From Bacteroidales bacterium (GTDB taxonomy: Bacteria > Bacteroidota > Bacteroidia > Bacteroidales > ML635J-15), in assembly GCA_003249955.1 (NCBI GenBank), contig QKHS01000083.1, positions 1 through 46,390 of the forward strand: a DNA stretch of 46,390 nucleotides, in the 5' to 3' direction. Position 1 is the stretch's first letter, and the number at the start of each line of letters is the position of its first letter. The notes below the pieces were generated by a model. That model was not told the origin of the DNA and did no database searches. It saw only the letters and a list, made by a program, of their open reading frames with translations. The translations under genes and the position numbers were made by a program. This document shows positions 1,943-17,992 of the stretch, one piece after another.

Positions 1943-2392
1943 ATGGAGGAGTACATTAATTCGTTGAAAAAGAATATAGACAAGCGCGATTTGTTACTGG
2001 CCCTGCAGGACTTTCAGAATAAATTCGGCTATGTGGATCAGGCTTTTATTGAACAATTAAGTCTGAAGACCGGTATTCCGTCGGGTAAAATTTATAGTAT
2101 AGCATCTTTTTACAACCAGTTCAGATTTATCCGTCCCGGGAAATATCATATAAAACTTTGTTCAGGAGCAGCCTGTCATGTAAATGCCAAAGAGAATCTT
2201 GTTGCAGAACTGTACAAACTAATTGGAATAAAGGACAGGGAATCATCTCCGGACGGGAAATACAGCCTTGAGTTTATTCCTTGCATGGGAGCTTGTGCTC
2301 TTGGTCCGGTTATGTCTATAAATAATAATTATTACACTCAGTTGAAAATAAAGGATTTGAAGAAAATAATACATGATCTGGATGAGATATGA
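1943..2392 (+). CDS. NuoE/HydC-like thioredoxin-fold [2Fe-2S] subunit
   Basis: This is the small electron-transfer subunit of a NADH-linked bifurcating complex. The 149-aa protein has the 24-kDa subunit layout: a helical N-terminus, then a thioredoxin-like fold with the [2Fe-2S] ligand pattern C73-x4-C78 (LCSGAACHV) and C114-x3-C118 (CMGAC). I chose ATG 1943, since the reading frame upstream opens only at a TTG (1919) that overlaps the predicted -7 box. No strong Shine-Dalgarno is visible. Its stop overlaps the start of the HydB-like gene by 4 bp, which implies translational coupling. In HydABC complexes this subunit docks on HydB. The family assignment is firm; the partner enzyme's reaction is less certain. 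Confidence 0.88.
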   Translation: MEEYINSLKKNIDKRDLLLALQDFQNKFGYVDQAFIEQLSLKTGIPSGKIYSIASFYNQFRFIRPGKYHIKLCSGAACHVNAKENLVAELYKLIGIKDRESSPDGKYSLEFIPCMGACALGPVMSINNNYYTQLKIKDLKKIIHDLDEI

Positions 2393-4302
2393 AAGCAACA
2401 CGTGACATAACATATAAAAAACTGCTTCAGAAAGATCAGTATTCTGAGTCCGGCGGAATGTACAAAGCCGGGATAAAGGTACCTCATATTTATGCCGAGC
2501 GAAGCACATGCAGTATTATTGCCGGAATTGACCTGACTATTCATTATTTAAAGCAATATTTTGAAGAATCAGGAGATGAGTATGTTTATGCGGAGACCGC
2601 ATGTAAAGGCTTTTGCAGTAATGATCCGGTAATAAGCATTCAATTACCTGGAAGAGCAATGATTTCGTTCCGTAATGTTTTTTACAATAAAATATCTTCA
2701 ATATTAGACAGTATCTTAAATAATATACTACCTGATAAATCTATGATTATCGGGCAATATTCACATCCTGAACTTACATCATGGCCGGATGTGCCGGAAA
2801 TAACCCAACTGAATTTTTATAAGAATCAAACCCGTAAACTCTTTAAATATGCCGGTTTTATTCAGCCTCTTTCAATAGAGTCTTATATGGAATATAACGG
2901 TTATAGTGCTTTTGCCAAAACAATTACTTCCAAAACTCATTCGGAGGTTTGTGGCATAGTTGAACAAAGCGGTTTGCGCGGACGCGGCGGAGGCGGGTTT
3001 TATACAGGTGAGAAGTGGAGAAAAGCACTTGAGAAAAACTCAGATAAAAAATATTTTATTTGTAATGCTGACGAAAGTGATCCCGGTTCATTTTCAGGGA
3101 GAATGCTTTTGGAGAGTAATCCTCACTTATTAATTGAAGGAGTATTGATAGGTGCTTATGCTATTAATGCCTCGGATGCGATAATTTATGTAAGAAGCAC
3201 ATATACACTTGCAATCAGCAGGCTTGAGAATGCTCTGCAACAGGCATTGTCAGCAGGAATAACAGGAGAAGATATTTTTGGCAGCGGAATAAACATAAGA
3301 ATATCAGTATTTGCCGGTCCGGGAGCATATGTTTGTGGCGAAGAAACTGCTCTTATTTCAAGTATAGAAGGAAGCAGGGGAATGCCAAAAACAAAACCTC
3401 CATATCCGTCAGAATCCGGGCTGTTTGGATTTCCGACAGTTGTTAACAATATAGAGACAATTTGTAATATTCCGGTAATTTTTAGCGAAGGAGTTGAAAA
3501 GTTCAAAGCAACAGGAAGGGAAGATTCTTTCGGCACCAAACTATATTCTGTCAGCGGACGGGCTGATTATAGCGGTATTGTTGAACTTGAAATGGGACGT
3601 ACTGTTAAAAATTTACTTGGTATTGTCAGACAGGAAGATAATCCTTATCCTGTAAAAGCAGTTCATATCGGAGGTCCTTCAGGCGGATTTATAAAACCTG
3701 ATGATTTTGGCTTAAGACTTGATTTTAGTGCAGTATTTAACAATAATTTATGGTTTGGCTCAGGAAGTTTTATTGTGCTCGATGAAACAAATTGTATTGT
3801 TGATATTACAAAATATTATATAGACTTCATTAACAAAGAGAGCTGCGGGAAATGCATTCCTTGTCGCGAAGGCTCACAGCGCTTGCTGGAGATACTGACC
3901 AGAATAACTGAAAAACCACGGACCGGACAAAAGTTTGAATCCCTTCTGCGATTCAAAGGAGTTACTCAGTTGGAAGAAATTTCTGCAATTATGAAGGAAA
4001 CTTCATTATGCGGATTGGGACAGAACGCTCCTAATACTGTATTGTCAGGTCTTAAGTTTTTCAGGCAGGAGTATGAAGAACATATTTACGAGAAAAAATG
4101 TGCAGCGTTTGTTTGCCGTAATTTAAAAGAATATTCGGTTAATGTTGATAACTGTGTAGGTTGCGGAATATGTGCAAAAAGATGCCCGGCAGATGCCATA
4201 ATCGGTAGCGCCAGAAATACACATTTTGTAATTCAGGAAAGATGTATAAAGTGCGGAACATGTTTCAATGCATGTAAATTTGATGCAATAATTGTAACTT
4301 AG
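2389..4302 (+). CDS. HydB/NuoF-like NADH- and FMN-binding subunit of a bifurcating complex
   Basis: This is the flavin subunit where NAD(H) and ferredoxin electrons meet. At 637 aa it matches HydB length (about 600-640). Domains in order: an N-terminal thioredoxin-like [2Fe-2S] region (C41, C72, C76 visible, about 30-95); the NuoF core with the FMN/NADH glycine-rich loop GLRGRGGGGF (195-204) and the second loop GAYVCGEET (312-320); SLBB region; the NuoF [4Fe-4S] site C486, C489, C492 and C541; and a C-terminal two-cluster ferredoxin (C589/592/595/599 and C619/622/625/629). The C-terminal ferredoxin pair separates HydB and related bifurcating subunits from respiratory NuoF. It overlaps the HydC-like gene and is followed 5 bp later by the HydA-like gene. 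Confidence 0.9.
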   Translation: MKATRDITYKKLLQKDQYSESGGMYKAGIKVPHIYAERSTCSIIAGIDLTIHYLKQYFEESGDEYVYAETACKGFCSNDPVISIQLPGRAMISFRNVFYNKISSILDSILNNILPDKSMIIGQYSHPELTSWPDVPEITQLNFYKNQTRKLFKYAGFIQPLSIESYMEYNGYSAFAKTITSKTHSEVCGIVEQSGLRGRGGGGFYTGEKWRKALEKNSDKKYFICNADESDPGSFSGRMLLESNPHLLIEGVLIGAYAINASDAIIYVRSTYTLAISRLENALQQALSAGITGEDIFGSGINIRISVFAGPGAYVCGEETALISSIEGSRGMPKTKPPYPSESGLFGFPTVVNNIETICNIPVIFSEGVEKFKATGREDSFGTKLYSVSGRADYSGIVELEMGRTVKNLLGIVRQEDNPYPVKAVHIGGPSGGFIKPDDFGLRLDFSAVFNNNLWFGSGSFIVLDETNCIVDITKYYIDFINKESCGKCIPCREGSQRLLEILTRITEKPRTGQKFESLLRFKGVTQLEEISAIMKETSLCGLGQNAPNTVLSGLKFFRQEYEEHIYEKKCAAFVCRNLKEYSVNVDNCVGCGICAKRCPADAIIGSARNTHFVIQERCIKCGTCFNACKFDAIIVT

Positions 4303-4307
4303 GGACT

Positions 4308-5960
4308 ATGGAATTTAATATTACGGTAAACAGAAACAGTATTAAAGCTGTAAAAGGAGAAACGATTCTCGCTGTTCTCAGACGCAACGGGATATCAGTT
4401 CCTACTTTGTGTAATATTCCGGAACTAAGTCCTACAGGAGCATGTCGTATTTGTGTCGTAGAGCTTGAAGACAGCGGCGAACTCGTAACAGCCTGCTCCA
4501 CTCCGGTTGCCGAAGGGATGAAAATTTTCACACATTCACGCAAGGTAATTGCCGCCAGAAAAACGATAGTCGAATTATTGCTTACAAATCATCAGGATAA
4601 TTGCCTTTATTGTGAAAAAAGCGGAGATTGTGAACTTCAGGATCTGGCAGGAGACCTTAACATAAGGGAACGAAGCTATGTCGGGTTCGGAGTTCCAAGG
4701 TCACCAAAAACAGACAGATCAGATCCGGGCATTGTGAGAGATATGTCGAAATGTATTTTATGCGGCAGGTGTGTGAGAATTTGTGAAGAGTTGCTGGGAG
4801 TATGTGCCATAGATTTTGTAAACAGAGGAAATAATATCGCAGTTGACACTGTTTTTCAGAAAGGGTTGTTTTATTCTAACTGCATCCACTGTGGTTTATG
4901 TATTACAGCATGTCCTACCGGTGCTATACTGGAAAAAGCAGTAGGTGCTCAGGTGTGTGAAAAAATTGACAATAAAGATAAAAACAGCACAATAATACTT
5001 GCCGGAAGCACAATTGCCGATCTGGCTCTGCACTTTAACATAAGAAAATTTGAAGATGCCCGTAATTATCTTGTGGCAGCTTTACATGATATCGGTTTTA
5101 ATAATGTCCTTACTTTGGGTTACGGCAACGAAATATTTATTACGGAACATGCAAAAAAACTTGCAATGAGTGCCGGAAAACAAAATCCCCCTTTAATAAT
5201 AAGTGATTGTCCGGCAGTAAGGAAGTTTATAAGGACAGAAATGCCGGATATGGAAAAATATCTGAGCAAGATTCCGACTCCTCAGCAGATAATGGGAAAA
5301 ATTCTTAAAAGCGGAGAGTCTCAGACAGAAATTCTTGTATCTGCATCTGCATGTGTGGCACATAAATATGAAGCCGTACAGAATGATAACTCAAATAAAG
5401 GAGCTCCGGATGTGGATTATGTTATTACTACCCGAGAGCTTTTGGGATTATTGAAAACCCACGGAGTCGTATTACCGTATAAGAAAAAAGAATCTCCGGA
5501 TAAACCATCTGGCTCAGAGACATCGGCAGGAGTATTGTTTGAAACCAAAGGCGGGATTTCCGAAACAATTTTGAGAGAATTGTTTTATATGTCAGGAGGA
5601 CAGAAATATCCGAAGAAAATTTTTGAGGTGAAAACAGATAAGCCGTTTATAGAATATGAATTTGAATTAAACGGTGTAATTTATAAAATTGCTTCGTTGC
5701 ATGGTATAGATACCTTGAGGCAAAAGAAAAATGAAATTATAAACGGATCTTATTTGTTTGTAGAAATAAGATCGTGTACGGCAGGATGTTTAAACGGATG
5801 CGGACATTTGCACAGCAAAGATCCTGAAGTACAGAAAAAATTAAAGAAAATTATTACAGAGTTTGACGAAACTAATATAAGTGACACTGCCGGTAAAAAT
5901 CCCTTTATAAAAGGATTTTATAAGCAAATAGGAAAAGAAAGTTTATTTGATTATGATTAA
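4308..5960 (+). CDS. HydA-like NuoG/H-domain subunit with divergent H-cluster motifs
   Basis: A 550-aa protein with the HydA plan. A plant-type [2Fe-2S] domain (C35, C46, C49, C63) is followed by the His-Cys [4Fe-4S] motif (H95, C99, C102, C108), a two-cluster ferredoxin (C149/152/155/159; C192/195/198/202) and an [FeFe]-hydrogenase large-subunit H-domain (about 228-500). The fold is recognisable from TPQQIMG, DYVITTREL and GGISETILR. The active-site motifs deviate: TSCCP is ISDCP (C301 kept; the proton-transfer Cys is D300), MPCTAKK is SACVAHK (C349), and MACPGGC is IRSCTAGC (C490, C494). All four Cys ligands of the H-cluster are therefore kept, but surrounding catalytic residues are not. 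It may be a slow, altered or non-hydrogenase enzyme. Activity cannot be read from sequence. Confidence 0.82.
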   Translation: MEFNITVNRNSIKAVKGETILAVLRRNGISVPTLCNIPELSPTGACRICVVELEDSGELVTACSTPVAEGMKIFTHSRKVIAARKTIVELLLTNHQDNCLYCEKSGDCELQDLAGDLNIRERSYVGFGVPRSPKTDRSDPGIVRDMSKCILCGRCVRICEELLGVCAIDFVNRGNNIAVDTVFQKGLFYSNCIHCGLCITACPTGAILEKAVGAQVCEKIDNKDKNSTIILAGSTIADLALHFNIRKFEDARNYLVAALHDIGFNNVLTLGYGNEIFITEHAKKLAMSAGKQNPPLIISDCPAVRKFIRTEMPDMEKYLSKIPTPQQIMGKILKSGESQTEILVSASACVAHKYEAVQNDNSNKGAPDVDYVITTRELLGLLKTHGVVLPYKKKESPDKPSGSETSAGVLFETKGGISETILRELFYMSGGQKYPKKIFEVKTDKPFIEYEFELNGVIYKIASLHGIDTLRQKKNEIINGSYLFVEIRSCTAGCLNGCGHLHSKDPEVQKKLKKIITEFDETNISDTAGKNPFIKGFYKQIGKESLFDYD

Positions 5961-7965
5961 GTTAGAAGAAAAAACGCCATTGGTTTTTACAATTGCTGAC
6001 AGGTGTAAGACTTGTTACACCTGCATCAGGGAGTGTCCTGCAAAAGCTATAAGCATGCAAAACGGGCAGGCAAACGTTATTGCCGAGCGTTGTATCGGAT
6101 GTGGCAATTGCGTTAAAGTCTGTACAAGAAAAGCTAAAGACTTTATTAATGATGAAACCGAGGTGTTGGGTATGCTTGCTTCAGATACTGATTGTATTGC
6201 ATGCATTGCACCTGCTTTCCCTGCAGAATTTAAAGAAATAAGCGACTACAGGATAATAGTCGGAATGCTGAAAAAACTCGGGTTTAAGAAAGTTGTGGAA
6301 GTATCTTTCGGAGCCGACCTTGTTGCTGAAAAATATCGCGATCTTATCAATAAAAGCGGTAACAATCTTAAATTTATTTCCAGCGACTGCCCTGCAATTG
6401 TTTCATATGTAACAAAATATCATCCGCACCTTACTCAGAATCTTGCACCGGTTATTTCTCCATTAATGGCTATAGTTAAAGTTATAAGAGAAATGTACGG
6501 AGAAAACAATAAGGTTATTTTTATTGGTCCGTGTATTGCAAAAAAGAATGAATCTTCGGCTCCTGACAATGTGCTTACATTTAAAGAACTGCGCAGTTTG
6601 TTCGAAAGAAAATCAATTAATCCGGAAGATGTTATACCTGAGGATTTTGATCCGCCGCAAAGTGGCCGTGGAGCTGTTTTCCCTGTAAGCAGAGGAATTA
6701 TTAATACAATTAACATTCAGGAAAACTTAATTCAGGGAAATCTTATTGTTGCCGAAGGACGTGAGAACTTTAAAGAAGCTATTACCGAGTTTGACACAGG
6801 GCTTATAAATGACCATAATCTTGAACTTTTGTGCTGCGAAGGCTGTATAATGGGCCCCGGGATGTTTACCGAAGGGAAAAGATTTGAGAATAAAGCCTAT
6901 GTCACCCGTTATGTGAGGGAAAAACTTGATAATATTAACTGGGACGAATGGAACAAAAATATGAACACCTTTAGTCATATTGATTTAAGCAGAACATTTG
7001 TTCCCGATGATTGCAGGGTTAAGGTTCCCACACGAAAAGAGATAGAAGAAATTTATATCGGTATGGGTAAAACCGAGAAGAAAGACCGACTGGATTGTCA
7101 TGCCTGTGGTTACAAATCGTGCGAAGATCATGCAATAGCCGTACTCAGAGGATTGGCAGAAATAGACATGTGTTTGCCTTACACTCTTGAGAAACTTAAG
7201 TCTATGGTTACCGAACTTAACTCGAAAAACAAAAAGCTGGAGACTGTGCACCAGGCTTTGAAACAAAGCGAAAAACTGGCACATCTCGGGCAATTGTCGG
7301 CAGGTATCGCCCATGAGATAAATAACCCTTTAGGAGTTGTAATTATGTATGCAAATATACTTCTCGACGAAGTAAACACAGATAATGAGTATTACGAAGA
7401 CCTTAAGCTTATTTCAGAGCAGGCGATGAGGTGCAAGAATATTGTAAGCGGGTTACTGAATTTTGCAAGAAAAAATAAAATAAGTTCAAACTATGTAAAT
7501 ACAATTACTTTCCTTAATTCATGTCTGAGGGCAGTAATTATTCCGCCGGAAATAAAGGTTCAGGTAAATGATTATCTTAAAAATCCGGAAATCTCAATTG
7601 ATGAGGAGCAAATGACGCAGGCCTTGACCAATATTCTTAAAAATGCAGTGGAAGCCATGCCCGACGGAGGTCTGCTTACTGTTTCTGCTTCCAATGAGAA
7701 TAACGAACTGGTAATTAATATTTCGGATACAGGTTCAGGAATTCTGGAAGAACATATGGATAAACTGTTTACCCCGTTTTTTACAACCAAATCAATAGGA
7801 AAAGGAACCGGTTTGGGCTTACCTACAACCTATGGAATTATCAAAATGCATAAAGGGAAAATTAATGTAACTTCCAATGCCGATCCCGGAAAAGGAGAGA
7901 CCGGAACTACTTTTACAATAAGATTACCACAATTTAACGAAATTAATAATGAGCAAGCTAAATAA
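5953..7965 (+). CDS. H-domain sensor histidine kinase (HydS-like)
   Basis: A cytoplasmic redox or gas sensor kinase of 670 aa; residue numbers here count two extra N-terminal residues from an upstream TTG. Order: two [4Fe-4S] clusters (C20/23/26/30; C49/52/55/59), an H-domain (L1 SSDCP with C148, L2 GPCIAKK with C196, L3 CCEGC with C296, C297, C300), an Fe-S domain (C384, C387, C392, C409), a coiled coil (about 410-445), HisKA with phospho-acceptor H456 in AGIAHEINN, and HATPase (NILKNAVEA, DTGSGI, GKGTGLGL). The proton-transfer Cys of L1 is Asp, as expected for a sensor rather than a catalyst. I chose ATG 5953, which overlaps the HydA-like stop. The receiver gene overlaps its 3' end, so the two are probably a cognate pair. 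No membrane segment is seen. Confidence 0.87.
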   Translation: MIKLEEKTPLVFTIADRCKTCYTCIRECPAKAISMQNGQANVIAERCIGCGNCVKVCTRKAKDFINDETEVLGMLASDTDCIACIAPAFPAEFKEISDYRIIVGMLKKLGFKKVVEVSFGADLVAEKYRDLINKSGNNLKFISSDCPAIVSYVTKYHPHLTQNLAPVISPLMAIVKVIREMYGENNKVIFIGPCIAKKNESSAPDNVLTFKELRSLFERKSINPEDVIPEDFDPPQSGRGAVFPVSRGIINTINIQENLIQGNLIVAEGRENFKEAITEFDTGLINDHNLELLCCEGCIMGPGMFTEGKRFENKAYVTRYVREKLDNINWDEWNKNMNTFSHIDLSRTFVPDDCRVKVPTRKEIEEIYIGMGKTEKKDRLDCHACGYKSCEDHAIAVLRGLAEIDMCLPYTLEKLKSMVTELNSKNKKLETVHQALKQSEKLAHLGQLSAGIAHEINNPLGVVIMYANILLDEVNTDNEYYEDLKLISEQAMRCKNIVSGLLNFARKNKISSNYVNTITFLNSCLRAVIIPPEIKVQVNDYLKNPEISIDEEQMTQALTNILKNAVEAMPDGGLLTVSASNENNELVINISDTGSGILEEHMDKLFTPFFTTKSIGKGTGLGLPTTYGIIKMHKGKINVTSNADPGKGETGTTFTIRLPQFNEINNEQAK

Positions 7966-8335
7966 AACAATATTATTGGCAGAGGATGATTTTGACTACT
8001 TGTTTCTGGTGAAATTCAGACTCGAAGCGGCAGGATTTGATGTCATAACCGCGAACTCTCAAAAAGAAGCAGAGTTATTGGTTAATACGTCGGATTTCGA
8101 TGCTGCGGTTTTCGATCTAATGATGGAAAATGATGATAGCGGTTTTGTTCTGGCATATATGTCAAAGAAAATAAAACCTGAGGTGCCGGTAGTTATAACC
8201 ACTGCTGTAGCTGCCGAAACCGGAATGTCTTTCGATAATGATAATTCATGGGTAAAAGCAGATTTATATCTTGAGAAAGGAGTTCAGGCCGAAAGATTAG
8301 CCGAGGAATTGATGAGGTTGTTGGGAATAATATGA
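7949..8335 (+). CDS. stand-alone CheY-like response regulator receiver
   Basis: A single receiver domain of 128 aa with the acidic pocket E12/D13/D14, phospho-acceptor D56 (AAVFDLMM), the switch Thr in VVITTA and a Lys near the end (LEKG). There is no output domain, so it probably relays a phosphate or acts by protein contact. It overlaps the kinase gene by 17 bp and is its most likely substrate. It is followed after 85 bp by a receiver-kinase hybrid that could be the next step. Confidence 0.85.
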   Translation: MSKLNKTILLAEDDFDYLFLVKFRLEAAGFDVITANSQKEAELLVNTSDFDAAVFDLMMENDDSGFVLAYMSKKIKPEVPVVITTAVAAETGMSFDNDNSWVKADLYLEKGVQAERLAEELMRLLGII

Positions 8336-8420
8336 TAAAACCCGTATTACAAACTTCAACTTATCTGATTTGAATATTGTAATTTGAGAATTAAAATTTA
8401 TACTTAAATAAATTTTCATT

Positions 8421-9539
8421 ATGGACAAATTAAGAGTACTTGTTGTTGACGATGAATTTGGAATAAGGTCAGGAATTAAAAGAATTCTCGACAAATTCGA
8501 AGTTGACTATCCTTTTATGGATGACCCGATAGGATTTGAAGTTTCTGAGGCAGACACAGGTGAGAAGGCTATTGAAATGCTGGAGGCTGAGAAATTTGAT
8601 ATTGTCTTGCTTGACAATAAACTGCCGGGTATTCAGGGGGTGGAAGTACTGGAGTTTATAAATTCAAAAAAGATTGACTCTAAAGTTGTTATGATAACCT
8701 CGTATGCATCTCTTGAACTTGCTGTAAGAGTAACAAAAGAAGGAGCCATAGATTTTGTCCCGAAACCATTTACCCCTCAGGAATTAAGATCTTCGCTTGA
8801 GAATATTACCAAGCAGATTTTTTTACGCCATATGACTACAAAATTGCAGAAAGAAGGAAAACAAATCAGGTTTCAGTTTCTGTCCATGCTTTCGCACGAG
8901 CTTAAAGCTCCGGTTAATGCCGTTGAGGGTTATCTCAATATTATTAAGGAGCATAACTGCGGAGATAATATTGCAGAATATATGCCTATGATTGACCGTT
9001 CTCTCGAAAGGCTTAATGCAATGCGCAGTATTATAATGGATATGCTGGATCTGACCAAGATAGAATCGCGTCAGGCAAAAAATAATGTACAGCCTGTCGA
9101 TTTTTGTCAGGTGGCAAAAATTTGTATGTCAACTCTGCAACCCATGGCAATACAAAAAGATGTAAAAATTTATCTTAATTGCAGTGGACCTGTGGTTATG
9201 GATTTTGATCCTGATGATCTGGAGATAATTTTAAATAATATTTTTTCAAATGCAGTTAAATACAATAAAGACGGAGGACGTGTTGACTGTAATTTTACTG
9301 ATAATGAATCGAATGTGGAAATACTGGTTGCTGATACAGGAATAGGTATAAGTGAGGAGGACCAGCAAAAACTGTTTAAAGAATTTGTCAGGATAAAAAC
9401 AGATGAAACCCGAAAAATTCCCGGAAGCGGACTTGGACTTTCTATAGTTAAGAGAATTCTTGAAAATTACGATTCGGAAATAAGTATGGAAAGCGAATTA
9501 AATAAAGGAACAACAATTAAAATAAAGATAAATAAATGA
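8421..9539 (+). CDS. receiver-histidine kinase hybrid (receiver first)
   Basis: A 372-aa soluble protein with an N-terminal receiver (D10/D11, phospho-acceptor D65 in LLDNKLPG, Thr in MITSYAS, K115 in VPKPF) followed by HisKA (H159 in LSMLSHELKAP) and HATPase (NNIFSNAVKYN, DTGIG, GSGLGLSIV). The receiver-first order means kinase activity may be gated by phosphorylation, the reverse of classic hybrids. No DNA-binding output is fused, so the final target is not visible. Its place after the H-domain kinase and the single receiver suggests one phosphorelay. Assignment of domains is secure; the pathway order is inferred. Confidence 0.86.
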   Translation: MDKLRVLVVDDEFGIRSGIKRILDKFEVDYPFMDDPIGFEVSEADTGEKAIEMLEAEKFDIVLLDNKLPGIQGVEVLEFINSKKIDSKVVMITSYASLELAVRVTKEGAIDFVPKPFTPQELRSSLENITKQIFLRHMTTKLQKEGKQIRFQFLSMLSHELKAPVNAVEGYLNIIKEHNCGDNIAEYMPMIDRSLERLNAMRSIIMDMLDLTKIESRQAKNNVQPVDFCQVAKICMSTLQPMAIQKDVKIYLNCSGPVVMDFDPDDLEIILNNIFSNAVKYNKDGGRVDCNFTDNESNVEILVADTGIGISEEDQQKLFKEFVRIKTDETRKIPGSGLGLSIVKRILENYDSEISMESELNKGTTIKIKINK

Positions 9540-9596
9540 AAATAAACAATAGCTTTTCTTAACGTAAAGATATACAGAAACCTGGTTTAGAAGGAG

Positions 9597-9617
9597 TTTA
9601 GTGTGTCGGACACTAAA
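9597..9617. repeat. short perfect inverted repeat before rex
   Basis: TTTAGTGT (9597-9604) and ACACTAAA (9610-9617) are an 8-bp perfect inverted repeat around a 5-base centre, in the 189-bp gap before the rex start. No T-run follows, so an operator is more likely than a terminator. It does not resemble the Rex consensus. A weak CTGCC/GGCAG pair follows at about 9642-9662. Confidence 0.4.
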
Positions 9618-9728
9618 GAAAATTTTGTAAAAACACACTGCCGGGTATATTTACGCAGGCAGCATAAATAATAAAGACACGTTATAGTGTATTTGAATAA
9701 AAGTCAAAACGAAAAGAAGAAGAAAAAT

Positions 9729-10358
9729 ATGTTACCGGAAAAAACAATAGAAAGACTAAGTATGTACCGCAGGGTATTGTTGTCACATCAGGAGGGCGGG
9801 GGAGATTTTATTTATTCTCACGAACTGGCAGGGATGTTACATCTTACATCTGTACAGGTAAGGAGAGACATAATGTTAATGGGATACACCGGAACTCAGC
9901 GCAAAGGTTACTCTGTGCATGAACTGGTCGAAAAAATAAGTTCAATTCTTGACGGCGAAGGAAGAATTAATGCTGTAATAATAGGAATGGGACATCTTGG
10001 GAAAGCAATTACCAATTATTTTAATGCCAAGCGAAGTAAAATTGATATAGTTGCAGCTTTTGATAATGATTCAACTAAAGTTGACAGAATTATTTCCGGA
10101 ATAAAAAGCTATCATATCGACAGTCTGGAGATGATTTTGGAAGAAACAAACACAAAAATAGCAATTCTGGCTTTGTCTCCCGGGGGAGCTCAGGATGTTG
10201 CAGACACGCTTGTGTTTTCGGGTATAAAAGGCATTCTTAATTTTACTTCGGTACCATTACATGTGCCGGAGGATGTGTATCTCGAAAATTATGATATGAT
10301 CACATCAATGGAAAAAGTAGCTTACTTTGTTAAAGAAGGAAACCGGAATGAAAACTGA
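9729..10358 (+). CDS. rex: redox-sensing transcriptional repressor Rex
   Basis: Rex binds DNA when NAD+ dominates and is released by NADH. From ATG 9729 the protein is 209 aa, the usual Rex length, and begins MLPEKTIERL like other family members; an upstream in-frame GTG (9687) would add 14 Lys-rich residues and is less likely. An N-terminal winged helix carries the recognition motif SVQVRRDI, followed by the NAD(H) Rossmann loop GMGHLG and AAFDND. TGTATTTG (9688-9695) is a near-match to the -7 promoter motif. Being in the same cluster as two Rex-like operators at 1875-1909, it probably controls the cluster by NADH/NAD+ ratio. The function call is firm; the target is inferred. Confidence 0.93.
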   Translation: MLPEKTIERLSMYRRVLLSHQEGGGDFIYSHELAGMLHLTSVQVRRDIMLMGYTGTQRKGYSVHELVEKISSILDGEGRINAVIIGMGHLGKAITNYFNAKRSKIDIVAAFDNDSTKVDRIISGIKSYHIDSLEMILEETNTKIAILALSPGGAQDVADTLVFSGIKGILNFTSVPLHVPEDVYLENYDMITSMEKVAYFVKEGNRNEN

Positions 10359-10441
10359 AGATGCCGGATGAAATAAATCTGGCTGTTAAGAATACAGGAG
10401 AATAATAAAATATAAAAAATAAAGAACAAAAAACTAAGAAT

Positions 10442-11755
10442 ATGAAAATTTCGATGATTGGGACAGGTTATGTAGGTTTGGTTTCGGGGACATGTTTTTC
10501 CGAAATGGGGATTATTACTTCATGTCTGGATATTGACTCCCGCAAAATTGAAAACCTGAAAAAAGGTATTATGCCTATTTGGGAACCGGGCCTGGAACAA
10601 ATGGTTAAGAGAAATTATGAAAAAGGCCGTTTGAGTTTTACAAATGATATGGCCGAAAGTATTGCAGACGCACAAGCTTGCTTTATCGCAGTGGGAACTC
10701 CTCCGGATGAAGACGGAAGCGCAGATTTACAGTATGTACTGTCTGTTGCACGCGAGATTGGCCGGAATATGCAGAATTATATGGTTGTGATTACAAAGAG
10801 TACTGTGCCGATCGGGACTGCCGAAAAGGTAAGAGCTGCCGTTGCTGAGGAATTAAAAAAACGTAATTCGGATTTAAAATTTGATGTTGCTTCAAATCCT
10901 GAATTTCTGAAAGAAGGAGATGCTATCGAAGATTGCCTGCATCCTGACAGAATTGTTGTGGGTACAGACTCAGAACAGGCAAAAGAAATAATTGACAGAC
11001 TTTACAAACCGTTTGTTTTAAACGGACATCCGATTATTTATATGGATATCCCTTCTGCTGAGCTGACAAAATATACTGCCAATGCTATGCTTGCAACTAA
11101 AATTTCGTTTATGAATGATATTGCAAATTTCTGCGAAAAAGTAGGTGCAGATATCAATTCTGTTCGTCGCGGTATAGGCTCAGACAGACGCATAGGACAG
11201 TACTTTATTTATGCAGGTACAGGTTATGGCGGATCGTGTTTCCCAAAAGATGTAAAAGCACTTATTAAAACAGCAGACGAAAACAATTATTCACTTGAAA
11301 TATTAAAGTCTGTCGAAAATGTTAATGACCGTCAGAAAGAAAGCCTTTATCATAAAGCTATGAAGCATTTTAATTCTGATCTTAAAGGGAAGAAATTTGC
11401 CGTATGGGGATTGTCATTTAAACCAAATACAGATGATATGCGTGAAGCTCCTGCAATTGTACTTATTGAAAAACTATTGGCAGAAGGAGCAGAGGTAACG
11501 GCATACGATCCTGTTGCAATGGCAGAGGCAAAGCGTAAATTAGGTGACAGAATTAAATATTCAGAAGACCCTTACAAGGCAGTTGATGGTGCTGATGCAA
11601 TGTTCCTGGTTACAGAATGGACAGAATTCAGAGTGTTGAATTATCCGGTACTTGAGAAAATGAAAGAGAAGGTAATCTTTGACGGAAGAAATATTTATGA
11701 CCCGGAAGAGGTTAGGGCCAAAGGCTTTGATTATTATAGTATAGGACGAAAATAA
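10442..11755 (+). CDS. ugd: UDP-glucose 6-dehydrogenase
   Basis: Oxidises UDP-glucose to UDP-glucuronate with 2 NAD+, feeding capsule or exopolysaccharide synthesis. The 437-aa length is typical. Visible are the N-terminal Rossmann loop GTGYVGLVSG, the FLKEGDA motif, the catalytic cysteine in GYGGSCFPKD, and the C-terminal UDP-binding domain (WGLSFKPNTDDMREAP). It could in principle be a related nucleotide-sugar dehydrogenase. It is a metabolic gene inserted between rex and the second sensory module, with only 6 bp before the next gene, so it appears co-transcribed. Why a UDP-sugar dehydrogenase sits here is unclear; it is an NADH producer, so Rex-linked control would be logical but is not shown. 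Confidence 0.9.
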   Translation: MKISMIGTGYVGLVSGTCFSEMGIITSCLDIDSRKIENLKKGIMPIWEPGLEQMVKRNYEKGRLSFTNDMAESIADAQACFIAVGTPPDEDGSADLQYVLSVAREIGRNMQNYMVVITKSTVPIGTAEKVRAAVAEELKKRNSDLKFDVASNPEFLKEGDAIEDCLHPDRIVVGTDSEQAKEIIDRLYKPFVLNGHPIIYMDIPSAELTKYTANAMLATKISFMNDIANFCEKVGADINSVRRGIGSDRRIGQYFIYAGTGYGGSCFPKDVKALIKTADENNYSLEILKSVENVNDRQKESLYHKAMKHFNSDLKGKKFAVWGLSFKPNTDDMREAPAIVLIEKLLAEGAEVTAYDPVAMAEAKRKLGDRIKYSEDPYKAVDGADAMFLVTEWTEFRVLNYPVLEKMKEKVIFDGRNIYDPEEVRAKGFDYYSIGRK

Positions 11756-11761
11756 ATAAAT

Positions 11762-12016
11762 ATGGATAGCAAAATAGAGGTTACAATTTGTTTAGGTTCT
11801 TCCTGTTTCAGTCGTAAAAACAGGGATGTGGTTACGGCTTTACAGGATCTTATTGTTACCAAAAATCTTGGTAATCTGGTTAATCTTAAAGGCGGACATT
11901 GTTTCGGTAAATGCAGTATGGGCCCGATAATGATTGTTGATGAACAGTGCTTTACAGAAATAACTCCTATGAAAGCTGTTGCAATAGTAGAAAGTTTTGT
12001 CTTAAATAAATCATAG
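11762..12016 (+). CDS. small thioredoxin-fold [2Fe-2S] protein
   Basis: An 84-aa protein equivalent to the C-terminal [2Fe-2S] half of NuoE/HydC. The ligands are C10-x4-C15 (CLGSSC) and C47-x3-C51 (CFGKC), followed by the usual MGP turn. It probably passes electrons to or from the adjacent H-domain/PAS sensor, which starts 8 bp after its stop. Similar small [2Fe-2S] genes accompany sensory H-domain genes in bifurcating hydrogenase loci of other anaerobes (general family knowledge). Confidence 0.85.
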   Translation: MDSKIEVTICLGSSCFSRKNRDVVTALQDLIVTKNLGNLVNLKGGHCFGKCSMGPIMIVDEQCFTEITPMKAVAIVESFVLNKS

Positions 12017-12023
12017 AAATCTG

Positions 12024-13874
12024 ATGGAACTGATAAGTATAAATAACAACAAATGTACCTTTTGCTATGCATGCGTGAGAGCCTGTCCTGTAAAAGCTAT
12101 TTCGATAAAATCCACATCCGATGAGCTGGTGGTAAACCACGACCGCTGTATCGGCTGCGGGAACTGTTATGTTAGTTGCGGTCCCAAAGCCATACAATAC
12201 AAGCAGTCTATTACTCAGGTTTCTGAATTCCTGAAATCAGACCGAAAATGTGTTGCAATAGTAGATCCGTCTATAGCATCCGAATTCCCGGACATTCTTG
12301 ATTATCGTAATTTTGTGGGAATGATAAGGGCTCTGGGCTTTGATTTTGTAAACGAAATTTCGTTTGGTGCAGATTTGATAGCACAGAAGTATAAGTCCAT
12401 ACTTGAAAATTTTAAAGGTAAATACTTTATAAGTGCTAACTGCCCGCCGGTATATGAGTATGTAGGTAAGTTTCAACCCCATATTGTCGATTCCCTTATC
12501 CCTCTTGATTCACCTATGATTGCAACAGCTAAAGTTATGAGACGCATTCATGGTGATGAGGCAATTGTTGTTGCTGTTACACCTTGCCTTGCACATAAAA
12601 AGGAAATATCAGGGTTTAGCGATATTATTAATGATGTAATAAGCTTTGAAGAATTAAGAATACTGTTCAACAATAATAATATTTACGAAAACTCGGTTGA
12701 ATTTTCTGAATTTGACCAGCCTATAGGCCGTAAAGGATCGCTGTATCCCATAAGTACAGGAATTCTTGATGCTGCTGATTTTGATTATACTCCAGGCAAA
12801 ACACGTATGATTACGCGAGAAGGTCCGGAAGTATTTACACGGAACATAAGCGATTTTGCAAATATAAGCGAGATAAAGCATCACCTCAATATTTTTTATT
12901 GCCATGGTTGTAATATGGGGCCTTGCTCAAAAAACAACGTAAGTTATTTGCATAATCACGGACTTGTTGTTGACTATACAATTAAGAGGCTGGGGCTGAT
13001 TGATGAGAATATATGGAAGAAAAACATGGAAATGTTTTCTGATATTGATTTTTCGCGTCGCTTTAAAGTTGACGATCAGCGCATTCCGCATCCGCCGGAG
13101 AAAAAGATTAAAGAAGTTCTTAAACTTTTGGGAAAAGAAACATACACCGAAACAGGTTGTAAAAGTTGTGGTTACGAAAACTGCTATGACTTTGCCGCCG
13201 ACGTAAGCAAAGGGCTTATGAAACCCGAAATGTGTGTTAGTTTTACTCTGAAAAACAGACAGGATTTTGTAAATAAAGTTACTGCAACAAACATAAAACT
13301 GGCCGAAACCAGAAAAGCACTGGAAGAATCCGAAGCTAAACTACGCAGGGAACACGAGGATGTTAAAGAGTCCATGACTTTGATTAAAGCTATTATGGAA
13401 AAAATTCCGTCCAGCGTTATAATTGTTGACAGCAACCTGAAGATTATTCAGTCAAATCAGAAATTTATAGAACTTATTGGCCCCGATGCAAAAGAAATAG
13501 ATGAGATTATTCCAGGTTTAATAGGAGCAGATATAAAAACCTTACTCCCGAACCAGATTTATAATTTTTTCAGTTTCGTACTTAACAAAGGCGAATCTAT
13601 TGACAATAAAGACATAGAGATAAACGAAAAGTTTGTCACATTATCGGTATTCCCTATAAAGAATGAAAAAATAGTTGGTGCTGTATTTAAAAATCTGTAC
13701 CAGTCTGAAGTAAGAAAGGAAGAAGTTATTTCCAGAATAAATGATGTAATTGAGAAAAATCTGGGAATGGTTCAGCAGATAGGATTCCTGTTGGGAGAGG
13801 GGGCATCCGAAACCGAGAGAATGCTTAACAGTATAATAACTTCTTTTGAAAAAGATAATCAGAAAAAAGAATAA
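12024..13874 (+). CDS. H-domain/PAS redox sensor (HydS-like)
   Basis: A 616-aa soluble sensor. Order: two [4Fe-4S] clusters (C11/14/17/21; C42/45/48/52); an H-domain with L1 SANCP (C140, N139 at the proton-transfer position), L2 TPCLAHK (C188) and L3 FYCHGC (C293, C296); an Fe-S domain (C379, C382, C387, C404); a coiled coil (about 420-455); and a PAS domain (about 455-560). It has no kinase. Aligned to its paralogue at 5953-7965, L3 has Tyr at the position of the first cluster ligand, leaving C-x2-C. The stop overlaps the phosphatase start by 1 bp, so it probably signals to that PP2C enzyme. Group C/D-type sensory hydrogenases are the nearest known relatives. Confidence 0.85.
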   Translation: MELISINNNKCTFCYACVRACPVKAISIKSTSDELVVNHDRCIGCGNCYVSCGPKAIQYKQSITQVSEFLKSDRKCVAIVDPSIASEFPDILDYRNFVGMIRALGFDFVNEISFGADLIAQKYKSILENFKGKYFISANCPPVYEYVGKFQPHIVDSLIPLDSPMIATAKVMRRIHGDEAIVVAVTPCLAHKKEISGFSDIINDVISFEELRILFNNNNIYENSVEFSEFDQPIGRKGSLYPISTGILDAADFDYTPGKTRMITREGPEVFTRNISDFANISEIKHHLNIFYCHGCNMGPCSKNNVSYLHNHGLVVDYTIKRLGLIDENIWKKNMEMFSDIDFSRRFKVDDQRIPHPPEKKIKEVLKLLGKETYTETGCKSCGYENCYDFAADVSKGLMKPEMCVSFTLKNRQDFVNKVTATNIKLAETRKALEESEAKLRREHEDVKESMTLIKAIMEKIPSSVIIVDSNLKIIQSNQKFIELIGPDAKEIDEIIPGLIGADIKTLLPNQIYNFFSFVLNKGESIDNKDIEINEKFVTLSVFPIKNEKIVGAVFKNLYQSEVRKEEVISRINDVIEKNLGMVQQIGFLLGEGASETERMLNSIITSFEKDNQKKE

Positions 13875-15058
13875 TGGCTGACAATTTATATATAGAAATT
13901 GATGCCCGTCAAATTAATCATAATGAAGAGAAAATTTGCGGAGATGTTTTCCTCAAAAAAAGGATAAAAGAGGATAAACGTATTATTGCCGTTTTGTCTG
14001 ATGGTATGGGACATGGTGTTAAAGCCAATGTGCTGGCAACTCTTACTTCGACCATGGCTCTTAATTTTACTGTTGAGCACCGTAAACCGGAACGCATTGC
14101 CGAAATAATTATGAAAACACTTCCGGTTTGCAGTGAGCGGCAGATTTCGTACGCAACTTTTACTGTTGTTGATCTGGAGATAGACGGAAAAGTTCACATT
14201 CTGGAATACGATAATCCCCCGGCAATGGTTTTCAGGAAAAATAAACCGCTTGCACTTAACCGTGAAGTCATACAGATGAAAAATCCTCAGCATCAGGGTA
14301 AAAAACTTACATTTACAAGCTTTTATCCCAAGTTGTATGACCGGATTGTTTTCTGTTCCGACGGAGTTGCTCAGTCTGGTATGGGTACAGACAAATTTCC
14401 TTTTGGCTGGGAAACATCACATATTGAAAACTATATAAGCGGGGTTCTTGAAAGCGGCGACGATATCTCGGCGGGCAGACTGGCTGAAAAAGTTGTAAAT
14501 AAAGCCGTGGCAAACGATGCATATTCTCCTAAGGACGATACCAGTTGTATTTCTGTTTACTTTCGCGAACCACGTAAACTGCTTTTGGTTACAGGCCCGC
14601 CTATTAACAGATCCAGTGATGAAGAACTGGCCTCAATTGTGAAAAATTATAACGGAAAAAAAATTATTTCAGGGGGATCAACTACCGATCTGATAGCCCG
14701 GGAACTAAAACTCAGAGTCACAGATTCTCTTGATTTTTTCGATAACGAATTGCCGCCCATATCGTACATGGATGGAATAGACCTTGTTACCGAGGGGATA
14801 CTTACATTAAATAAAGTATGGAAGATTCTTACCAACATCGGCATTGACTATAAACCCGGAAAAGGTCCTGCAGATCAGGTTGTGAAACTTATTCTGGAGA
14901 GTGATCATATTGATATCATTGTCGGTACAAAGATAAATGAAGCCCATCAGGACCCTAATGTTCCGGTTGATCTGGAGATACGCAGAACTATAGCAGGACG
15001 TATTGCCGATGTATTGGAAAATAAATTGCTGAAGCATATAACAGTAAGACATATATAA
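13874..15058 (+). CDS. SpoIIE-like PP2C serine/threonine phosphatase with extra C-terminal domain
   Basis: A 394-aa metal-dependent phosphatase. The PP2C/SpoIIE core (about 1-230) shows the metal-binding motifs GDVF (23-26), SDGMGHG (42-48), CSDGV (161-165) and KDDTS (220-224). Residues about 235-394 form a separate domain I cannot name, with the motifs VTGPP and IISGGSTTD. It overlaps the H-domain/PAS gene by one base, which implies coupled translation and a sensor-effector pair. Its protein substrate is not in the window, and I see no anti-sigma-antagonist or HPr-kinase-type partner. It is the last gene of the cluster. Confidence 0.84.
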   Translation: MADNLYIEIDARQINHNEEKICGDVFLKKRIKEDKRIIAVLSDGMGHGVKANVLATLTSTMALNFTVEHRKPERIAEIIMKTLPVCSERQISYATFTVVDLEIDGKVHILEYDNPPAMVFRKNKPLALNREVIQMKNPQHQGKKLTFTSFYPKLYDRIVFCSDGVAQSGMGTDKFPFGWETSHIENYISGVLESGDDISAGRLAEKVVNKAVANDAYSPKDDTSCISVYFREPRKLLLVTGPPINRSSDEELASIVKNYNGKKIISGGSTTDLIARELKLRVTDSLDFFDNELPPISYMDGIDLVTEGILTLNKVWKILTNIGIDYKPGKGPADQVVKLILESDHIDIIVGTKINEAHQDPNVPVDLEIRRTIAGRIADVLENKLLKHITVRHI

Positions 15059-15125: not shown

Positions 15126-17963
15126 TTATCGCTCAACTACAACTTTTTTAAGGACTATTCCGTTTGCCGATTGTATTTCGAGCAAATATATTCCTGTTGC
15201 CAGTCCGGAAATATCGACAGAATTTAAATTGCCTTCGTTGAGCATAATAATAGTCTTTCCCGAATAATCAATAATTTTTAATGATAATATTTCTGAGCCG
15301 GAAATTATTTCCAGAATATCTTTTGCCGGATTCGGGAATAATTCTGTTTCTGTCATATCTGTGTTTTTTATCATGGTAGAACCATGAACTGTAATACTCT
15401 GGCTATCGGTTTTTACAGAAGCAGGACATCCTTCGGTATAAGCTGTAAGCGTTACTGTGTAGCTTCCTTCATCGGTGTAAATAACATAAGGATTTACATC
15501 ACATGAATAAACATAGTTGTCAAAGTCCCACTGAAAACTTTCAGCATATTCCGATGTGTTTGTAAAATAAGCTATTGCATCAGGGAGATATAATTCATGT
15601 GAATTAACTTCAAAGTCAGCATCAGGTAAAAACTTCGCCTCGATAAAATCCTGATATTCAACACTGTCATTTTCAAATAAGCCGTAAGCAACCATTTTAA
15701 CATTGTAATATCCGCCTATGGGGAAATTTACTACCGGGTTTTCGTCTGTGCTGCTAAAATCTGATTCTCCTGAGAATGTCCAGTAATAGCTTAGTGCATT
15801 TGTTGAGAGGTTTGTAAAGTTTACCGGAGTATTAACACAAACTACATGCTCAGCGGTTTCAAAAGCAGCAACAGGAGCCGGTAAATATTCAAATTTAACT
15901 GCGTCGTAAGCTATTGAGTCGGAGCTTATTCCTGTAGAGTCGCCCAGATAAACCCGGAAATCCTGTCCGGGAACAAAATTGTAAACTCCGAGATCTGCCC
16001 ATTCGTCGTTATATTCATTCTGGTTTATCAAAACAGTAGTAGTTTCGTCACCGTGTTTAACTTTATAAGGAGCATTCTGAGCATTGGCACATGCCGACGG
16101 AATATATGCAGAAACTCTGTAATGTCCTTCATGAGTAAGTGTCGGAATCCAGTGTACCCAACAAATGTCGTTTGCTGTTGCTTCTGTTAATGTCCACCAC
16201 GCATGATCGTTGTACCCGGCATTCTGATCTCGGAAATACCTCATAGTAGATGTGTTTTCGCTGTTGTTCATTTCAAAACCGTGTTGATAATAAACATCAT
16301 CAATTATGGTGTCATTGTATGCGACTTCCTGATTATGAGCTGTTACTGTCCATGCGATTACCCCATAAGAACCGTTGTAATCAAGGTTTTCGTAGCCATT
16401 GTTGTAGCCTGGCCAGTCATAATAAGCTTTTTGACCGTCGTAGCTTGGCCATGAAGGGGTGTTCTTGTCCCCGTAAGGTTCGCTGAAGATTAAAGTGTGC
16501 TGGTCTTCAATATATCCTTTGGCGAGAATCAAATGGCCTGCACTGCTTAGCATTACGCACATAGGCAAAGGATATTGATTGTCAATCTCGGTAAGAACGC
16601 TTTCAAATGTAACTGAGTTATTCCATAATTGGGACGATTCAAAATAATGAAGTTCCATATAATTGCGCATCTGAGAATTTGGAGAACCCAGTCCCCACAT
16701 ATATCCATAACCGCCATAAGCAAGGTCTCCGCCGTCAGTATATTCAGATTCTGTAAAATAATGCTCATTCAGCCTGTATCGTGTGGAAACATAAGATCCG
16801 TAATAACTTGTATGCGGGAAAAGTTTGGTTACTGCTGTCGGCCACTTTGGCAATTTATTATAATAAGAAATTGCCATAATTGCGCATGTCGGAGCACATG
16901 ATCCATAGCCATAATGAGGATCGGGAGTGTCGTAAACCTGATGGGTATAAGGAACTTCGCCAGGAATCAGCACTTCGGATTTTGTTGATTTTACGTTAAA
17001 AAATGCAATGTTAAGCCCTCCATTATGTTTGTAAATCAATTCTGATTCAGACGTGTTTATGTTTAGCTTATAAATTTCACGTCCGCTGTATGTATTGTAA
17101 ATTATCTGTGAATCTGAAACAAAAACAGGCTGCATTTCAATCACATCGTTGGTGTTGGTAAGATTTACATGGACAGGATTTTTGTAATTACAAGTATAAA
17201 TTTCTGAATTTGTCAGGGTGTAGTTTTCAACTGTTGTGTTGTGAAAAATAATGTTTTCCGAATCGAAAGACCATTCAGGTGCAAGCCCGTAGCCAAGATC
17301 AAATATTTTATCAGTCAATATCTCATAAACATAGATTTTATCTGATTGGAAAAGGACTTTTTCTCCATCAGGTGAGAACTGAGGGTATGAACTCATTTTG
17401 TTTTCTTCGGATATCTGTAAAGTTTGGCCTGAATTCAGATCCATAAGCTTTATCCTGTCGTTAAATGAGTATGCCGCTTTACTGCCATCGGGAGATATTT
17501 CAACAATATTTGAATAATAGTCCAGATCATATTCTTTACGGGTTCCATGGCTTAAAATAATCAGTGTTTTACCTGATGTGAATGTTACTCCACCATTAAA
17601 AAATGCAGGCTGGCCGCAAAGATTTACAGGAGAATCAAGAAATTCTGTTTTGCCGTTTTCGATGCTAATAACTGCCGGGATTTGTCCGGCATCGCTGATA
17701 TGTTTATATCCGATAAATTTACCATCAGGCGAAACTGTGAAATATCTTCCGCAACCGGGAGATGAAACAAGAGTCTGCAATTCTCCGTTTTCAAGATAAT
17801 AAAGCGAATTGCAATAATTATTTGTAAATACATAACCGTTTAAAGCTGGTCTTACATTTATAAAATAACCTTGCTCTTCGGCAAAATATGCGTCGTCAGG
17901 ACGTGGTTGGCAAAAAACAGATATTGTTGCGAACAAAAAGAATAATGCATTAATAGTTTTCAT
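15126..17963 (-). CDS. secreted propeller/C39-like peptidase/PKD protein with T9SS sorting domain
   Basis: A large exported modular protein of 945 aa. I start it at ATG 17963, giving a clean signal peptide (MKTINALFFLFATISVFC), and ignore 13 upstream residues. Order: a TolB/WD40-like beta-propeller (about 25-320, with SPDGK and FSPDGEKVLFQS repeats); a C39-like papain-fold peptidase (about 335-520; Cys in YGSCAPTCAIM, His in HLILAKGY); a beta-sandwich resembling golvesin/carbohydrate-binding modules (about 560-690, HYRVSAYIP); two PKD-like domains; and a T9SS tail (LFPNPAKDI, ATGIYLLEI). Protease activity is likely, but the substrate is unknown. A -7-like box lies at 17992-17985. Confidence 0.8.
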   Translation of the reverse strand: MKTINALFFLFATISVFCQPRPDDAYFAEEQGYFINVRPALNGYVFTNNYCNSLYYLENGELQTLVSSPGCGRYFTVSPDGKFIGYKHISDAGQIPAVISIENGKTEFLDSPVNLCGQPAFFNGGVTFTSGKTLIILSHGTRKEYDLDYYSNIVEISPDGSKAAYSFNDRIKLMDLNSGQTLQISEENKMSSYPQFSPDGEKVLFQSDKIYVYEILTDKIFDLGYGLAPEWSFDSENIIFHNTTVENYTLTNSEIYTCNYKNPVHVNLTNTNDVIEMQPVFVSDSQIIYNTYSGREIYKLNINTSESELIYKHNGGLNIAFFNVKSTKSEVLIPGEVPYTHQVYDTPDPHYGYGSCAPTCAIMAISYYNKLPKWPTAVTKLFPHTSYYGSYVSTRYRLNEHYFTESEYTDGGDLAYGGYGYMWGLGSPNSQMRNYMELHYFESSQLWNNSVTFESVLTEIDNQYPLPMCVMLSSAGHLILAKGYIEDQHTLIFSEPYGDKNTPSWPSYDGQKAYYDWPGYNNGYENLDYNGSYGVIAWTVTAHNQEVAYNDTIIDDVYYQHGFEMNNSENTSTMRYFRDQNAGYNDHAWWTLTEATANDICWVHWIPTLTHEGHYRVSAYIPSACANAQNAPYKVKHGDETTTVLINQNEYNDEWADLGVYNFVPGQDFRVYLGDSTGISSDSIAYDAVKFEYLPAPVAAFETAEHVVCVNTPVNFTNLSTNALSYYWTFSGESDFSSTDENPVVNFPIGGYYNVKMVAYGLFENDSVEYQDFIEAKFLPDADFEVNSHELYLPDAIAYFTNTSEYAESFQWDFDNYVYSCDVNPYVIYTDEGSYTVTLTAYTEGCPASVKTDSQSITVHGSTMIKNTDMTETELFPNPAKDILEIISGSEILSLKIIDYSGKTIIMLNEGNLNSVDISGLATGIYLLEIQSANGIVLKKVVVER

Positions 17964-17984
17964 GGTTGTATAATTATAATTTAA

Positions 17985-17992
17985 CAAAAATA
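17985..17992 (-). promoter_or_regulatory. -7 promoter box of the propeller/C39 gene
   Basis: On the minus strand this reads TATTTTTG, matching TAnnTTTG, 22 bp before the chosen start codon. No convincing -33 element was found at the expected spacing. Confidence 0.4.

Follow-up and report, generated by a model that had tools for sequence, protein, structure and literature searches.

A HydABC-like gene cluster of Bacteroidales with two H-domain sensors and an altered H2 site

What is the role of a complex built like a bifurcating hydrogenase when the residues around its H2 site have been replaced and its genes stand beside two sensors? The question is raised by positions 1943-15058 of contig QKHS01000083.1 (assembly GCA_003249955.1, Bacteroidales bacterium), referred to here, at its full length of 46,390 nucleotides, as the window. 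The source genome (4.7 Mb, 101 contigs, 99.8% complete; the window is contig C36) has Bacteroidales/Marinilabiliales metagenome-assembled genomes (MAGs) as its near relatives. Open reading frames and profile scans placed eleven genes, all on the plus strand, in this interval. They encode the three subunits of a HydABC (BfuABC) complex, two sensors with [FeFe]-hydrogenase H-domains that we call HydS1 and HydS2, their putative signalling partners, and the repressor Rex. An earlier note on this DNA had proposed a redox or H2-sensing control unit more than an energy-conserving hydrogenase. This is supported for the window's genus, where residues of the HydA pocket and proton path are lost and the HydB motifs are intact. 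We give an even chance to the reading that the locus is a Rex-controlled, NADH- and ferredoxin-linked redox-signalling operon based on a HydABC complex with a disabled H2 site.

HydA (4308-5960, plus strand; PF02906, E = 3.7e-42) has a degenerate H-domain. Its predicted structure (mean predicted local distance difference test score, pLDDT, 88.8) matches best the HydA of T. kivui (8a6t; template modelling (TM) score 0.91). The protein nevertheless falls below the profile cut-offs, scoring 425 bits against 765 for NF040763 and 219 against 406 for TIGR02512. The group A3 H-cluster motifs TSCxP, MPCxAKK and ExMxCxxGC are not matched: ISDCP, SACVAHK and EIRSCTAGC stand in their places, so that TSCCP is absent, as the earlier note had said. 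Residues such as E279 are named by what we take to be CpI numbering, which agrees with residues given in passages of the papers cited below. In the nine sequences from the genus, the window's included, C299, E279, M353, K358 and M497 are altered without exception. C299 is Asp and M497 is Arg in all nine, K358 is His in seven and Asn in two, and neither E279 nor P231 is kept in any. E278 and S319 apart, none of the residues checked in the proton path or next to the diiron site is kept in the genus. All four cysteine ligands of the cubane are kept in every sequence but that of locus L145, where C499 is Phe. With the proton path and the pocket missing, H2 chemistry in the genus HydA is improbable. 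The ratio of nonsynonymous to synonymous substitution rates (dN/dS) of the HydA H-part lies at 0.06-0.12 for four close pairs, a further two being saturated; this is about double that of the N-terminal part in the same four (0.03-0.05) and near that of HydB (0.09, two pairs). Judged by these ratios, the H-part is under purifying selection in the genus.

Passages of published work show what single substitutions do. The CpI mutants E279A/Q and C299A/S have activities below 1%, and C299D retains 30-80% of H2 release in both CpI and CrHydA1 (PMC6226526); a different compilation gives 10-58% for H2 evolution (PMC9563086). Equating the loss of C299 alone with inactivity is therefore ruled out. In M497L the [2Fe] subsite is reported, in the part of the source available, not to be properly integrated (PMC10055695).

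To place the window among its relatives, 145 HydA sequences were gathered and five duplicates dropped, leaving 140; nine of 80 named loci yielded no HydA frame and were dropped. These are the best matches by similarity to the window, and the frequencies below are not those of all HydABC. HydS2 or its phosphatase was in view in 53 loci (HydS2-type) and not in view in 41, where at least 6.5 kb upstream was seen; the remaining 46, which include both kinds, lay too near a contig or stretch end to be classed. In the HydS2-type loci C300, C355 and C503 are kept in 53 of 53 and C499 in 52 (211 of 212 cells for cubane ligands), and C299 is lost in 34, M353 in 30, K358 in 32 and M497 in 12. The corresponding losses among the 41 loci without HydS2 in view are 1, 1, 0 and 1. 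The 34 replacements of C299 are D (13), A (12), S (5), H (2) and R (2), and M353 has become T or S in 27 of 53. A second large altered group, with many Bacteroidales MAGs, carries Ala299, Thr353 and mostly Met358 (ISACPAW, TPCMAMK). Fisher tests of HydS2 against pocket loss ignore descent, and since HydS2 arose about once they set a single clade against those around it. E279 is kept in 39 of the 41 proteins without HydS2, in 4 of 19 HydS2-type proteins with Cys299, in 1 of 26 with other residues there and in 0 of 9 from the genus. As 15 of the 19 HydS2-type proteins with Cys299 are without it, loss of the proton path may have preceded that of the pocket.

Three trees suggest that the loss recurred. 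A HydA tree made without the motif columns (88 rows) requires 12 changes at C299 and 12 at K358, a HydB tree (82 rows) 9 and 11, and a tree of the HydA N-terminal part 10 and 12. These were quick searches supported by the Shimodaira-Hasegawa-like approximate likelihood ratio test (SH-aLRT) alone, and for the HydA and HydB trees every second locus without HydS2 was omitted. The HydS2-type state changes 2, 1 and 4 times on the HydA, HydB and N-part trees, respectively, and therefore had about one origin. The HydA tree places two exceptions without HydS2, L068 (C299N, M353E) and L112 (M497L), within the HydS2-type clade. The phylogeny of the three H-domains suggested in the earlier note separated HydA, HydS1 and HydS2 into three groups, 26 HydA rows including that of the cluster lying on one side of a branch with support 99 and the sensors apart. 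The HydA H-domain thus groups with HydA proteins and not with the two sensors, which points to a group A-type domain altered in place. Gene conversion from HydS1, with which HydA shares SDCP, is ruled out by the same tree.

The other two subunits retain the features of group A3. HydC (1943-2392, plus strand; PF01257, E = 2.4e-38; ATG at 1943 in a frame open from 1919) is a thioredoxin-like [2Fe-2S] protein, and HydB (2389-4302, plus strand; PF01512, PF10589, Fer4) is the flavin mononucleotide (FMN)/NADH subunit. In the window HydB has the FMN/NADH fold and the ligands of the two C-terminal [4Fe-4S] clusters; in the genus BfuA, BfuB and BfuC are all present with the conserved cofactor ligands of the wider Bfu family. 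The best solved relatives of HydB are NfnB (9n5u) and the HydB-type 7t2r. Its core Fe-S cysteines are kept in 33 of 33 loci of the HydB set with altered C299, and the 8 genus rows all contain both CNADE and GEET. Less constant within the clade are cysteines 41/72/76 of the N-terminal thioredoxin-like part. Position 228 (approximately 3070-3072 of the window), where the Asp of CNADE stands, is Asp in every one of the 8 genus rows and in 24 of 29 rows that are without HydS2 or unclassed. Because motifs and core cysteines are kept in the genus, electrons plausibly still flow in from both NADH and ferredoxin as far as the HydA cubane.

HydS1 (5947-7965, plus strand; PF02906, E = 3.5e-46; PF04060, HisKA, HATPase) consists of an H-domain, a C-terminal Fe-S region and a histidine kinase. 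It is followed on the same strand by a stand-alone receiver (7949-8335; PF00072, E = 9e-11) and a receiver joined to a histidine kinase (8421-9539; PF00072, PF00512, PF02518). HydS2 (12024-13874, plus strand; PF02906, E = 2.4e-27), with H-domain, Fe-S and PAS regions, adjoins a SpoIIE-type PP2C phosphatase (13874-15058, plus strand; PF07228, E = 8.1e-11). The count of three H-domains in the earlier note was thus correct. HydS1 has the marks of a kinase-linked sensory HydS, namely an H-domain with a histidine kinase, the cubane ligands and a residue other than Cys at 299. HydS2 has those of the phosphatase-linked type, although its PAS domain is a weak Pfam match (PAS_8, E = 0.002 only) in a region with predicted secondary structure and a model pLDDT of 74.4. 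Over 62 loci HydS1 keeps all four cubane ligands, with Gly at M353 and Lys at K358, in every case and has Asp at C299 in 60. HydS2 is loose, with K358 kept in 0 of 33 and C499 in 25 of 33. This constancy makes HydS1 the cluster protein most likely to carry a working H-cluster. As DNA-binding partners for the receiver, the receiver-kinase and the phosphatase, the cluster offers only Rex and a divergent MerR.

The putative control region lies directly before hydC. A Rex-type operator, TTGTT-N8-AACAA, is present at 1892-1909 on the plus strand (TTGTTTGTTTAATAACAA), and TATATTTG at 1914-1921 on the same strand fits TAnnTTTG, which we take to be the consensus of the -7 element of Bacteroidota. The Rex gene itself (9687-10358, plus strand) scores 205 bits with NF003995, above the curated cut-off of 126. 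The pattern TTGT-N10-ACAA, picked after the window had been viewed and compared with simple letter shuffles, stands before hydC in all 8 genus loci whose sequence extends that far (shuffle mean 0.13, maximum 1) and in 24 of 45 other HydS2-type loci (0.61, maximum 3). It was found in 3 of 33 loci without HydS2 (0.34, maximum 3) and in 4 of 26 unclassed ones (0.33, maximum 3). The box also agrees with TTGTTA-N6-TAAC, the consensus predicted for Rex in T. saccharolyticum and given in a passage that reports a putative Rex site for hfsABCD (PMC5886521). Regulation of the operon by its own Rex is likely on this evidence.

From the gene content, the kept and lost residues, the purifying selection, the Rex-type box and the recurring loss of the pocket, all read from sequence, we infer a mechanism with respect to cofactor content, electron flow, Rex binding, sensor coupling, targets and signalling role. 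HydB and HydC would remain able to pass electrons to and from NAD(H) and ferredoxin. HydA would keep its Fe-S relay and, through the four cysteines, the cubane of the former H-cluster, the two-iron subsite in the genus being probably unbound or not working. The redox state of the Fe-S chain would then be set by the NADH and ferredoxin pools and could be passed to HydS1 and HydS2, either by contact or by electrons moving through the ferredoxin-like N-termini of the sensors. HydS1 would feed the relay of kinase, receiver and receiver-kinase, perhaps with an additional H2 signal of its own, and HydS2 would feed the SpoIIE phosphatase. Because its genes remain together with both sensors and with their outputs, we regard the complex as the sensors' source of redox input.

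The cluster is not a rarity. The order was searched in 295 genomes, of which 180, the source genome included, gave a HydA-like match at E <= 1e-60. We read 60 neighbourhoods out of 99 stronger matches (at least 334 bits, counted by eye) outside the source genome. hydC, hydB and hydA occur together in 56 of the 60, a sensor kinase and/or receiver-kinase lies downstream of hydA in 55, Rex lies downstream in 31, and HydS2 and/or phosphatase genes are in view in 25. The earlier note had called the arrangement unusual for Bacteroidota and had held that a gene set common there would refute it; the kinases in 55 and the HydS2/SpoIIE module in 25 of 60 order relatives show it to be common, and recurrence across these neighbourhoods rules out rarity. 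Within the genus the cluster is found with small differences in eight other genomes (HydA identity 52-66%), which rules out chance. L141 is without UDP-glucose 6-dehydrogenase (UGDH), L138 shows no receiver frame, and several contigs end inside the cluster; a ninth genome, G305 (L151), has a HydA fragment alone at a contig end. In those genus loci whose contigs extend far enough, and in L146 from the same family, the HydS2-phosphatase module is downstream and co-directional. In loci seen outside the family it is divergent to hydC.

Nor is the cluster the cell's sole hydrogenase-like locus. Whereas hydE and hydG are absent from its eleven genes, as the earlier note had observed, the absence of maturases and of a canonical HydA from the organism, which might be inferred from this, is ruled out for the genome as a whole. 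Six PF02906 H-domains were found there, three of them in the cluster. A canonical HydA with TSCCPGW, MPCLAK and MACPGGC is encoded on C10, together with HydG (499 bits) and, near its operon, a 439-aa H-domain protein; a further canonical-type HydA with TSCSPGW is on C17, and HydE on C65 (308 bits). Elsewhere, a canonical high-scoring HydA was found in 14 of 14 tested order genomes with altered C299 and, as a second HydA, in 8 of the 9 cluster-bearing genus genomes, the exception being G316 (90% complete). H2 chemistry would therefore be handled by another enzyme. HydG was detected in 57 of 62 genomes searched, including each of the nine from the genus that carry the cluster and 13 of 14 order genomes with altered C299.

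Several observations weigh against the signalling operon proposed above. C299 is still Cys in 19 of 53 HydS2-type loci, 13 of which keep all four pocket residues; pocket loss is therefore no requirement of the module. The nine genus genomes with the cluster all encode HydG, G316 among them although it shows no other HydA, so a component of the cluster may itself need an H-cluster. To this it can be countered that G043 (95% complete) has an altered HydA and shows no HydG. Position 228 of HydB is Asp in only 17 of 44 other HydS2-type rows and is replaced in 27, by Lys in 11. An NADH/FMN site intact across the whole HydS2-type clade is thus not borne out; constraint on another cofactor site seems to have eased in this clade as well, and flavin or NADH function may also be gone from some members beyond the genus. 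The contact between HydABC and the sensors is likewise something that we infer, and the cluster of G298 is partly broken. Finally, sensory HydS proteins without C299, M353 and M497 still hold a full H-cluster, according to passages of PMC10055695, so lost pocket residues are not proof of a missing diiron site. An absent diiron site cannot be told by sequence from one present in a slow sensory form.

This last point leads to the possible, though doubtful, explanation that HydA is a third sensory H-domain with a full but slow H-cluster, allowing the complex to weigh H2 against NADH and ferredoxin and to signal the outcome. The commonest changes are indeed HydS-like (C299 to Ala in 12 and M353 to Thr or Ser in 27 of 53), E279 often gives way to hydrophobic residues as in HydS (passages of PMC10055695 and PMC10407848), C299D enzymes retain the H2 release cited above, and HydG is widely kept. 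However, K358, constant in HydS1, is lost in 32 of 53 HydA, and in the genus M497 has become Arg, K358 His or Asn and P231 is lost in nine of nine, while L145 is without the C499 ligand. The explanation suits the Ala299 clade better than the window. An ordinary but slow bifurcating hydrogenase would account for the retained fold (TM 0.91 to 8a6t) and for the many order-level relatives with SCCP/MPCTAKK/MACPGGC that look catalytic, but with five residues of the H2 site changed in every genus member we consider it very improbable.

Alternatively, the complex may carry out another reaction, either bifurcation in which the third substrate is another compound or simple NADH:ferredoxin exchange. The available text of PMC9304861 describes Bfu enzymes that have no H-cluster (NiFe-HydABCSL, Nfn-Bfu), NfnB is the closest solved relative of HydB, and the operon includes UGDH, an NADH producer. 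We think this unlikely, as HydA has no added substrate domain, profile scans gave no obvious new catalytic subunit and the sensors remain linked to the complex. Decay into a functionless operon is suggested by G298, where the UGDH, HydS2 and phosphatase frames are broken (L145, 14787-19343) and C499 of HydA is Phe, and by the receiver frame missing from L138. It is hardly credible given dN/dS values of 0.02-0.13 for every gene and pair in which dS was unsaturated, the conserved Rex-type box, and reading frames and gene order that are otherwise intact in the remaining genus loci over the length of their contigs.

The signalling operon on a disabled HydABC can be compared with known systems. With the group A3 HydABC/Bfu enzymes of T. 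maritima, T. kivui and A. woodii it shares the subunit set, domain order, HydB and HydC cofactor motifs, accessory clusters and HydA fold; it differs in a HydA without C299, E279, M353, K358 and M497. A3 genes beside sensors are already known: passages of PMC11406978 describe, in Hydrogenedentota, BfuABCT/BfuTABC with C3 sensors carrying PAS or kinase domains, and 21 of 53 C1 sensors adjoining A3. The BfuA described there has generally conserved H-cluster motifs with TSCxP and no reported dismantling, unlike the window. HydS-phosphatase modules are known too. Thermoanaerobacterium hfsABCD comprises the HydS-type HfsB with PAS, the serine phosphatase HfsC and the ferredoxin hydrogenase HfsD. 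Deletion of hfsB affects both ethanol yield and the expression of adhE, which makes the module a regulator of fermentation (passages of PMC5707799 and PMC11837493). The window resembles it in an H-domain/PAS protein adjoining a phosphatase and in an upstream Rex-type site, but adds the HydABC complex, a kinase relay and Rex, and its linked hydrogenase is altered. HydS1 and HydS2 have the architecture of sensory HydS of groups C/D (TmHydS, TamHydS), with C299 replaced. They depart from these in that HydS1 mostly has Asp at this position, where Ala is usually reported in the text available (PMC10407848), and HydS2 lacks K358 in 33 of 33. Bfu complexes without an H-cluster, as cited above, are also established. 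What seems to be new is a sensor-linked HydABC clade that keeps its cubane cysteines and repeatedly loses diiron-pocket residues; in the open-licence PubMed Central (PMC) texts, as far as available, no report of repeated pocket loss of HydABC in one sensor-linked clade was found.

More tentatively, at somewhat under even chances, HydABC complexes of this clade may have abandoned H2 chemistry repeatedly and turned into pseudo-hydrogenases, whose bifurcating-type cores feed the NADH/ferredoxin state through a cubane-only H-domain to kinases and a Ser/Thr phosphatase. To our knowledge, little is understood of how anaerobes read the ferredoxin pool, compared with NADH (Rex) or H2 (HydS), and a HydABC sensor touching both pools would be a direct candidate. 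The clade provides some ten natural replicates of pocket loss with cubane ligands retained, among them enzymes that naturally carry Asp, Ala or Ser at C299. Counts of A3 hydrogenases in Bacteroidota genomes made without a pocket check may overstate H2 capacity.

The remaining genes can be described briefly. Profile scans confirmed all genes listed in the earlier note (HydC/B/A-like subunits, two H-domain sensors, receiver, receiver-kinase, Rex and PP2C phosphatase); two others had been overlooked, UGDH (10442-11755, plus strand; TIGR03026, 468 bits against a cut-off of 190) and an 84-aa [2Fe-2S] thioredoxin-like protein (11762-12016, plus strand; PF01257, E = 8e-10). UGDH is one of the cluster genes in 8 of the 9 genus loci (its frame is split in L145) and in L146 and L149, and the 84-aa protein adjoins HydS2 in many relatives. 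Between Rex and UGDH, where the window has no gene, the scanned relatives L139 (8998-9900; flavokinase part weak) and L149 (4680-5624) encode a RibF-type FAD synthetase, found after Rex also in the order loci L057 (11441-12385) and L055 (11735-12670). Identification of this intervening gene as a sugar epimerase was wrong. Divergent to the operon is a MerR-type regulator (463-1338, minus strand; PF13411, E = 1.7e-14), present at the same position in L145 and replaced by a phage-type integrase in L138.

On C17 (L007, 4792-8258) the TSCSP HydA belongs to a second HydABC, with a short HydB of 404 aa ending before the C-terminal ferredoxin-like clusters. It adjoins a Rex gene, a TTGT-N10-ACAA box lies 230 nt upstream of its hydC, and genes that look by eye like a Hox-type NiFe-hydrogenase are found farther on. 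hydG directly follows the cluster in L057 (12884-14311) and, by coordinates, in several other order-level genomes; in the genus genomes it is on contigs other than the cluster's. Elsewhere in the window, a LytTR response regulator is paired with a tetratricopeptide-repeat (TPR) histidine kinase at 22911-25488 on the minus strand, and several proteins with type IX secretion tails, one of them alpha-amylase-like, are encoded at 15126-22667 and 35629-42342.

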